Part shown: piece after piece, positions 62,119 through 64,000 of the stretch | Position numbering within the stretch: the stretch's first letter is position 1 | Layout of the letters: each line of letters starts with the position of its first letter | NCBI GenBank assembly: GCA_938084675.1 | Contig: CALKGM010000006.1 | Span: forward strand, 1-64,000 | Source of the DNA: Candidatus Poseidoniaceae archaeon | GTDB lineage: Archaea; Thermoplasmatota; Poseidoniia; Poseidoniales; Poseidoniaceae | Reading direction: 5' to 3' | Length of the DNA stretch: 64,000 nt | Notes under the pieces: generated by a model | Told to the model about the DNA's origin: nothing | The model's input: the letters and a program-made list of their open reading frames with translations, nothing else | The model's database searches: none | Translations under genes and position numbers: made by a program

Positions 62119-63135
62119 ATGGCAGGCTTCGGCGGCATGCGGAAAGGAAGGAATGAAGCAGTTGATAACCTCGGCTATAACGAGGACGGAGATTGCCCTC
62201 GGTGTGGTGGTAATGCCCAAGATTCAACCATGAAGGGCTATCTTCAATGCGGTTCTTGTGGACATGAATGGGCTGACCCAGATTATGTTGAAGAAAAAAA
62301 ATCGATTGAACCGCCTTCATACAAAAGAGACGAGGACCTCATTCGACAGTTCCGACAAGACATGGAATCGGGGGAACTTGCAGATGTGTTAGGGGTCAAG
62401 AAGGAACTAACCGGGCAACAAGAGCAATCGCTAAAACGTCTAGAGGATAAGTGGATGACTGGAATGCAAGGCCATTTTAATGCCGCAGTTGAAGAGCGTA
62501 AACCACTTATGATTAGTTTTGATGACGACGATAATATCGTATCCACAGAAGTAGGTTCCATCACATTGGTTGACAATGGGTTTGATGGTGGAGAGGAAAT
62601 TCGTTTGGAATATCCTGGAAAAGGCACCGAATTTTACGCATATAACGAGCGTAGCCCAACCGGATGGAAGCGTGGCCCGTCTGCAGAGGCAACCGCTCGC
62701 TCAATTGCAAATGTTATCAATCGTTCATCAAAATTAGTCTATGCTAATATTACTGGTAATCGCGTAGGTTTTGAACTGCGAGACGATTCTCTAAAGCGTG
62801 CCTCTTTCGTACTTTTTGTTGATGACCCGGGTGGTACTGACATTATTGCAGAAAAAGGCGGAGTTGTTTTGGATTCACGAGACCCCGTTACGCTACAGGA
62901 TTACAGGACCGTAGTGGAATTGGTGTTAGAAGATGGAATCATTTCACCCAGCGAAGATCAACTACTTTGGGCAATGCGTGAGCAATTAAATATTGATGAC
63001 ATGTATCACGTCCAAATGGTCATCGATATTTGTGGGGAAAATGCCGTAAAAGAATGTACAACTTGCGGTTCTATGGCTGATTTACACCAAGAATACGCCG
63101 CATGGTACTGTCAATCTTGTGAAGCGTGGTGCTGA
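62119..63135 (+). CDS. Soluble protein with N- and C-terminal zinc ribbons, unknown function
   Basis: 338 residues. A zinc ribbon lies at about 26-49 (CPRC, CGSC), a coil-forming charged region at about 65-125, a beta-rich middle (SITLVDNGFDGGEEIRLEYP), a helical TerB-like segment (VVELVLEDGIISPSEDQLLW) and a second ribbon at the C-terminus (CTTC, CQSC). The double-ribbon plan hints at nucleic-acid binding or scaffold function. No family recognised. It follows the DUF35-like gene by 42 bases and stands just upstream of the actin-like gene, separated by 133 bases. Confidence 0.65.
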   Translation: MAGFGGMRKGRNEAVDNLGYNEDGDCPRCGGNAQDSTMKGYLQCGSCGHEWADPDYVEEKKSIEPPSYKRDEDLIRQFRQDMESGELADVLGVKKELTGQQEQSLKRLEDKWMTGMQGHFNAAVEERKPLMISFDDDDNIVSTEVGSITLVDNGFDGGEEIRLEYPGKGTEFYAYNERSPTGWKRGPSAEATARSIANVINRSSKLVYANITGNRVGFELRDDSLKRASFVLFVDDPGGTDIIAEKGGVVLDSRDPVTLQDYRTVVELVLEDGIISPSEDQLLWAMREQLNIDDMYHVQMVIDICGENAVKECTTCGSMADLHQEYAAWYCQSCEAWC

Positions 63136-63268
63136 ACAAAAAAACCAGCCCTAGATCCTGTTCTATAGGATGCCTAACTCAAAGATTTCCAGGGTTCTCT
63201 TGAATAATCTCTATTTTAACGGTGGGACTCTTCATAAACTCCGCCGTTATGGATACGCCAGTGAGCCT

Positions 63269-64000
63269 ATGGCGAAAGATGTATTGTATATTGGAATTGA
63301 TTTGGGAACCTTCCGCTCTGTGATGGTCTCCTCGGACAGTCATGAAGTTGAGGAATTGACAGTTATTGGGACACCAAAAGACCCAATCGCTCGAAACTTC
63401 TTGAAGCGAGACGTTCTTTTTGGCGAAGAAGCCCTCAAGAACCGCCTTGCATTGAACCTCTTTCGTCCATTGGAACTCGGTGTTATCAAGGATACTCCTG
63501 AAGACAGGGAATTCATTGCACACTTTATCACTCATCTCATCGGTCTATCCGACCCTGAAGAGTACGACCGTGTCGTCGCCGTCATCGGTGCGCCTGCTGA
63601 AGCAAGCCACGTGGACAAAACAGCGATTTTTGATGCCGCTGCAGGTTCAGTAAACTCAGCAATGATTATCTCTGAACCCTTTGCAGTTGCCTACGCTCTT
63701 GACATGATTAACCATACTCTTGTGATTGACATTGGCGCTGGTACAACTGACCTTTGCCGTGTTTACGGTACAATCCCAGGCCCAGGTGACCAAATGCACA
63801 CAGGATATGCTGGTGACTATGTTGATAATCAAATCATCAAAGAAGTACAATCCAAATATAATGGGGCTCAAATCACCAAGGATATGGCTCGCCGATGGAA
63901 GGAGCAGCACTCATTCGTTTCAACAGGTGCTCCAGAAGAACCTGTTTTGGTTGATTTCTCCATCGATGGGAAAGCCATGACACTCGATATCACTGATTGT
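63269..64000 (+). CDS. MamK/MreB-like actin ATPase (partial, cut by window end)
   Basis: The first 244 residues of a bacterial-type actin; the frame is open to the last base. Phosphate-1 loop: YIGIDLGTFRSVMVSS; phosphate-2 loop: LVIDIGAGTTDLCRVYG; also VIGTPKDPIARNFLKRDVLF, ELGVIKDTPEDREFIAHFIT, AVIGAPAEAS, MIISEPFAVAYALD, GTIPGPGDQM and AGDYVDNQI. The run of motifs, including the PKD, PGP and QHSFVST segments, follows magnetosome MamK more closely than MreB, ParM or Thermoplasma Ta0583 as I remember them. It would form ATP-dependent filaments. ATG 63269 follows GTGAG; ATTTTAAC at 63213-63220 may be its TATA box. No other magnetosome-type gene is in the window. The comparison is from memory. 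Confidence 0.88.
   Translation, partial: MAKDVLYIGIDLGTFRSVMVSSDSHEVEELTVIGTPKDPIARNFLKRDVLFGEEALKNRLALNLFRPLELGVIKDTPEDREFIAHFITHLIGLSDPEEYDRVVAVIGAPAEASHVDKTAIFDAAAGSVNSAMIISEPFAVAYALDMINHTLVIDIGAGTTDLCRVYGTIPGPGDQMHTGYAGDYVDNQIIKEVQSKYNGAQITKDMARRWKEQHSFVSTGAPEEPVLVDFSIDGKAMTLDITDC

Follow-up and report, generated by a model that had tools for sequence, protein, structure and literature searches.

MamK-type actins as a conserved paralogue pair in the Poseidoniales, archaea of the surface ocean

MamK is best known as the actin of magnetosomes, the magnetic organelles that it lines up in the cell. The locus studied here carries a gene of this type in the Poseidoniales, the most abundant archaeal group in surface ocean waters and, to our knowledge, a lineage without cultures. 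No mention of MamK-type actins in the Poseidoniales or Thermoplasmatota was found in the literature searched. Archaeal sequences near the MamK and ParM branches are however not unprecedented, since Yutin et al. (2009) mentioned some archaeal proteins in these branches, with Ta0583 as an example.

The actin A gene and its family assignment

The window, that is, the whole stretch of DNA analysed, runs over bases 1-64,000 of contig C6, which has 90,463 bases and belongs to a genome of 1.94 Mb. A forward-strand frame at 63269-64000 stays open up to the edge of the window, and the preliminary description had proposed to look along the contig for the rest of the gene. It comes to its stop at C6:64294, so that the gene, here called actin A, is whole in the genome, and the C-terminal third of its product carries the usual actin core (VLAGGGS, GAMGGLRLA). 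To judge from the sequences, the start is likely the ATG at 63269, because the orthologues in Poseidoniaceae start at the same residue. The features concerned are as follows.

63269..64000 in the window and on to 64294 of the same contig, forward strand: actin A, a MamK-type actin of 341 aa
63299..63310, forward strand: DLGT, the first phosphate loop, residues 11-14 of actin A
63674..63676, forward strand: codon of Glu136, equivalent in the alignment to the catalytic Glu143 of MamK and invariant at 128 of 128 actin A loci, some of which are one genome repeated from two collections
63728..63751, forward strand: DIGAGTTD, the second phosphate loop, whose Asp154 is equivalent to Asp161 of MamK and invariant at all of the same 128 loci

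All the motifs that the preliminary description had quoted from this frame are present in it (DLGT, PKD, GAPAEAS, SEPFAVAYALD, DIGAGTTD, TIPGPGDQ, AGDYVDNQ and QHSFVST), and its placing of the host among planktonic euryarchaea is supported. Genomes of Ca. Poseidonia contain identical or near-identical proteins, which makes the organism a member of Marine Group IIa. When the equivalents of Glu143 and Asp161 are mutated in other actins, ATPase activity and filament dynamics are abolished (PMC5059902). In the closed single-contig Poseidoniaceae genome G002, actin A (L148:8433-9457, reverse strand) is split over two overlapping frames, which indicates a frameshift, either real or a sequencing error.

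The likeness to MamK had been claimed over the whole length of the 244 visible residues, and it is confirmed for the complete protein, far beyond chance. Against the NCBIfam models, actin A scores 363.4 bits with MamK (E 1e-108, residues 6-337), 216 with BeeR, 97 with MreB and 67.7 with salactin, and a sequence search of the PDB gives the same order, with MamK at E 3.5e-76 (residues 2-336), BeeR at 5.9e-45 and MreB at about 6e-15; searching the PDB with a profile of 17 relatives left it unchanged. The AlphaFold model (pLDDT 86.5) predicts an intact actin fold, and the top matches in a structural search with it are the MamK structures 5ljw and 5ljv (E about 1e-39, TM 0.88-0.92). In Pfam, the best match is the general MreB_Mbl model. 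With MamK of Magnetospirillum magneticum AMB-1 (PDB 5jyg, 5ljv, 5ljw) the protein aligns full length at 40% identity and shares Glu143 and Asp161, GTxPGPxDQ, AGxYVD and the C-terminal LRLAxExP. However, it is archaeal, and its score remains below the curated NCBI cut-off for MamK (400), which is exceeded in none of the 195 genomes of the class. Because of this cut-off, actin A is called MamK-type here on its sequence and is not filed as MamK proper, so that the earlier identification stands as to type and not as to membership. No magnetosome-type gene was recognised among the neighbours of the actin loci, as had been stated for the vicinity of actin A. The magnetochrome domain was not found in 8 genomes searched, in a search that gave no match in any control genome.

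None of the other actin families claims the protein either. BeeR of Opitutus terrae (PDB 8r2n), the next-best family, is likewise related to MamK, comes from organisms that lack magnetosomes and was described as of unknown function (PMC11929497); however, identity to it is 35%, the score falls short of its cut-off of 530, and the disordered N-terminal extension of BeeR (30-50 aa) is absent from actin A, which starts 4 residues before its first strand. Salactin and volactin of haloarchaea are archaeal actins too, but the score with salactin is far from the cut-off of 400 and that with the volactin model is 35.2 bits; salactin was itself placed nearest MamK in a study covering haloarchaea and their relatives (PMC10746226). 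MreB, crenactin and Ta0583 share the actin superfamily fold. The MreB score lies below the cut-off of 293, the Ta0583-type C-terminal domain PF21522 reaches 19.7 bits against a cut-off of 27.8, and the crenactin model gives no match with actin A. These scores, together with a branch of 100/100 support that parts actin A from the distant MreB in the tree, bear out the earlier preference for MamK over these three types.

An ancient paralogue pair, its distribution and its origin

Actin A is not the only such gene in its genome. A second one scores 338 bits with the NCBIfam MamK model, which ranks first there too, and reaches 12.6 bits with the crenactin model (cut-off 630).

C12:70277: actin B, the second MamK-type actin of the same genome, 334 aa, 48% identical to actin A

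In both families of the order, the gene immediately upstream of actin B codes for a subtilase of 1085 aa whose C-terminal part has calcium-repeat-like DGDG segments (L004:4894-8151).

Among the 195 genomes sampled from the class, all 94 Poseidoniaceae have a MamK-type actin match, nearly always in two copies. In the sister family, actins occur only in genera g14, g16, g18 and g21 (15 genomes), the other sampled genera having neither; in the rest of the phylum outside the order, a MamK-type gene was found in a single genome (G259). The tree resolves A and B as separate clades, each of which contains both families, so that the split between them predates the two families. One genome of genus g14 in the sister family (G024, 91% complete) lacks both actins and both of the partner genes described below, while it keeps archaellins and its relatives in the genus have actins; either recent loss or missing contigs would account for this.

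The depth of the pair bears on the reading that actin A is a recently transferred bacterial MamK gene or an assembly contaminant. Its nearest characterised relative is indeed bacterial. However, the same gene with the same neighbours recurs in dozens of independent Poseidoniales genomes, the closed one included, identity across genera is 73-90%, and the A/B split is older than both families; conserved synteny and the depth of the split rule out contamination or recent transfer, and we give this reading practically no credence. The preliminary description had left a choice between transfer and an older role in positioning something else. Of these, an isolated transfer event is not supported, the gene being part of an ancient paralogue pair that sits at conserved loci in all sampled Poseidoniaceae and in several genera of the sister family; positioning of another cargo is plausible. 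A MamK-type pair among the core genes of abundant ocean archaea means that the type is not tied to magnetosomes.

As to the deeper origin, the A and B clades stand beside a group (support 97/99) made up of bacterial MamK, the actin of G259 and a viral actin, with BeeR and MreB outside. A single clade of A and B is compatible with the data (p-AU 0.17-0.39 across three data sets), and a single clade of all Thermoplasmatota actins is borderline (p-AU 0.03-0.19). The branch that parts the MamK-side group from BeeR has support of 51/71. With one bacterial MamK in the tree and with long branches, the ancestor of the order may have acquired its actin by an old transfer from bacteria or viruses, or may have inherited it vertically. 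Plasmids and phages, searched for a source of close relatives, gave only MreB-like matches (23-29% identity). Outside magnetosomes, the MamK type has a history in archaea and a virus that is either older or parallel.

The two other members of that group are of interest in themselves. G259 belongs to Thermoplasmatota outside the order, and its actin on contig C140 (L138:9128-10225) reaches 435 bits, above the NCBI cut-off; it is 45% identical to actin A and, in its class, the only case in 12 genomes. On the sequence of its contig it is a genuine archaeal gene, because the same contig carries the only RpoB of the genome, which is 69-76% identical to those of relatives in the class. A coiled-coil-like gene of 618 aa (L138:10423-12279) follows directly downstream, which recalls one of the Poseidoniales loci, although the actin itself groups apart from the Poseidoniales pair. 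The viral gene (L151:2989-4032) codes for 347 aa, scores 359 bits with the MamK model and is carried by the tailed-virus contig IMGVR_UViG_3300009370_000045 (49.8 kb). A major head protein gene lies about 1.8 kb upstream of it, and a terminase large subunit gene follows after 3 bp. A canonical MreB (L139:5014-6045, 532 bits) was also met in a Thermoplasmatota bin with 8% contamination (G385), where it is probably bacterial contamination.

Partner genes and candidate cargo

Both actin loci keep their neighbours across both families, and each actin has a conserved partner. That of actin A lies in the window.

62119..63135, forward strand: partner A, a 338-aa zinc-ribbon protein, directly upstream of actin A
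63136..63268, forward strand: 133-bp gap separating actin A from partner A (at other loci, 54-163 bp)

Partner A has a CxxC..CxxC ribbon at its N-terminus, a second one at its C-terminus and a weak TerB-like stretch between them; its predicted structure (pLDDT 67.8) gave no PDB match under E 0.001 in a fold search. It stands directly upstream of actin A on the same strand in 73 of the 74 loci with enough upstream sequence, and at the remaining locus the order is the same, with about 490 bp in between. The gap leaves room for a promoter, and co-transcription of the two genes is not certain. Among the Poseidoniales genomes tested, partner A occurs in 28 of 29 that bear actins and in 0 of 20 that do not, the exception (G080) showing one actin only, a type-B match. 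Partner B, a 426-aa protein encoded directly downstream of actin B, is charged, poor in Pro and Gly and periodic at 3.5 residues, and because of this composition and periodicity it is probably a coiled coil; its full-length form occurs only in genomes that have the actins. We regard the joint loss of actins and partners as the strongest evidence here for a functional link, to which kinship contributes in part, since most of the losses fall in one part of the sister family. Two other candidates were dropped: the DUF2071 gene downstream of actin A, ruled out as a partner because it adjoins in 3 of 71 loci only, and kinship of partner B with the coiled-coil-like gene of G259, between which there is no detectable sequence similarity. 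The conserved system of four genes, two actins and two partners, gives archaeal cell biology a concrete case that can be tested.

One candidate cargo is the archaellum, whose presence and distribution in Poseidoniales have been described (PMC6461757, PMC6336850), and which the filaments might chiefly place, as an organelle of adhesion or motility, at a defined site of the cell. Actin and the archaellum motor gene arlJ are found together in all Poseidoniaceae tested and in g14 and g18, both are absent from g11, g12, g15, g17 and g19, and the association over 20 genera has p = 0.007, uncorrected for kinship. However, g16 (4 genomes) and g21 (1 genome) have actins without arlJ or archaellin, g13 (3 genomes) has an archaellum without actin, and the association loses significance (p = 0.5) when the sister family is taken by itself; moreover, there is no linkage between the loci in the closed genome, where actin B lies at 0.18 Mb, actin A at 1.18 Mb and arlJ at 1.65 Mb. 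An obligatory partnership is ruled out by g16, g21 and g13, and we consider even a chief role in placing the archaellum improbable.

A second candidate is a general role in cell shape or nucleoid segregation, needed by Poseidoniales with larger genomes that are associated with particles or algae and dispensable in streamlined ones. Genomes of actin-bearing genera are mostly of 1.6-2.2 Mb versus mostly 1.2-1.6 Mb in actin-free ones, and the pattern of actins resembles a published split, although the genus numbers used here are not mapped onto its subclades: in that split, degradation of algal oligosaccharides is a trait of MGIIa and of three basal subclades of MGIIb (PMC6336850). DNA segregation, moreover, is among the keywords for salactin, the haloarchaeal actin reported to have its closest kin in MamK (PMC10746226). 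On the other side, genome size, ecology and kinship are confounded, and neither of the conserved neighbourhoods points to DNA partition. Such a role is unlikely in our judgement, though less so than a chief role in placing the archaellum.

The position of MamK Ala278 and a proposal for filaments

Apart from having other partners as an ancient pair, actin A differs from MamK at one position of particular weight. The PDB entry 5ljw is titled as a non-polymerising A278D mutant of MamK, and at the position of actin A that aligns with it, 112 of the 128 loci have Asp and 14 have Asn, i.e. 126 in all, whereas the residue is Pro, Ser, Thr or Ala at 9 loci of actin B. This contrast, together with the different conserved partners of the two actins, would be accounted for if actin A, despite its actin fold, were no filament protein but an ATP-dependent switch, and actin B alone polymerised. 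The rest of the MamK-type sequence of actin A, however, is conserved full length with the catalytic residues included, and the effect of one substitution need not hold in another protein; we think it unlikely that actin A is such a switch.

The Poseidoniales probably use an actin filament system to position something besides magnets, and the reading that we favour by a modest degree, from the whole of the comparisons above, is that their actins form ATP-dependent MamK-like filaments which position or segregate a cargo other than a magnetosome, with the partners as tether or regulator and with the assembly of actin A perhaps assisted. Actins A and B would assemble with ATP into filaments like those of MamK, for which treadmilling is described (PMC5059902), and the cargo might be cytoplasmic or membranous. 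Partner B, as a likely coiled coil, may serve as tether or organiser, for which the coiled-coil Mad proteins that act with MamK and Mad28 provide a precedent (PMC12748827), and partner A may regulate actin A or link it to other components. Because Asp or Asn sits where Ala278Asp makes MamK non-polymerising, actin A may need help to assemble, either from actin B in a copolymer or from partner A, or else it may do so by way of an altered contact. A more specific picture, which we hold to be unlikely as a whole, is a two-actin cytoskeleton in which actin B forms filaments organised by the coiled coil, actin A joins and leaves them under its zinc-ribbon, TerB-like partner, and the assembly positions an archaeal structure. 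The natural Asp at the 278 site may be offset elsewhere in the interface, which makes the step of regulated assembly speculative. In the Asp and Asn of actin A, nature has made an experiment on a residue known to control the polymerisation of MamK.
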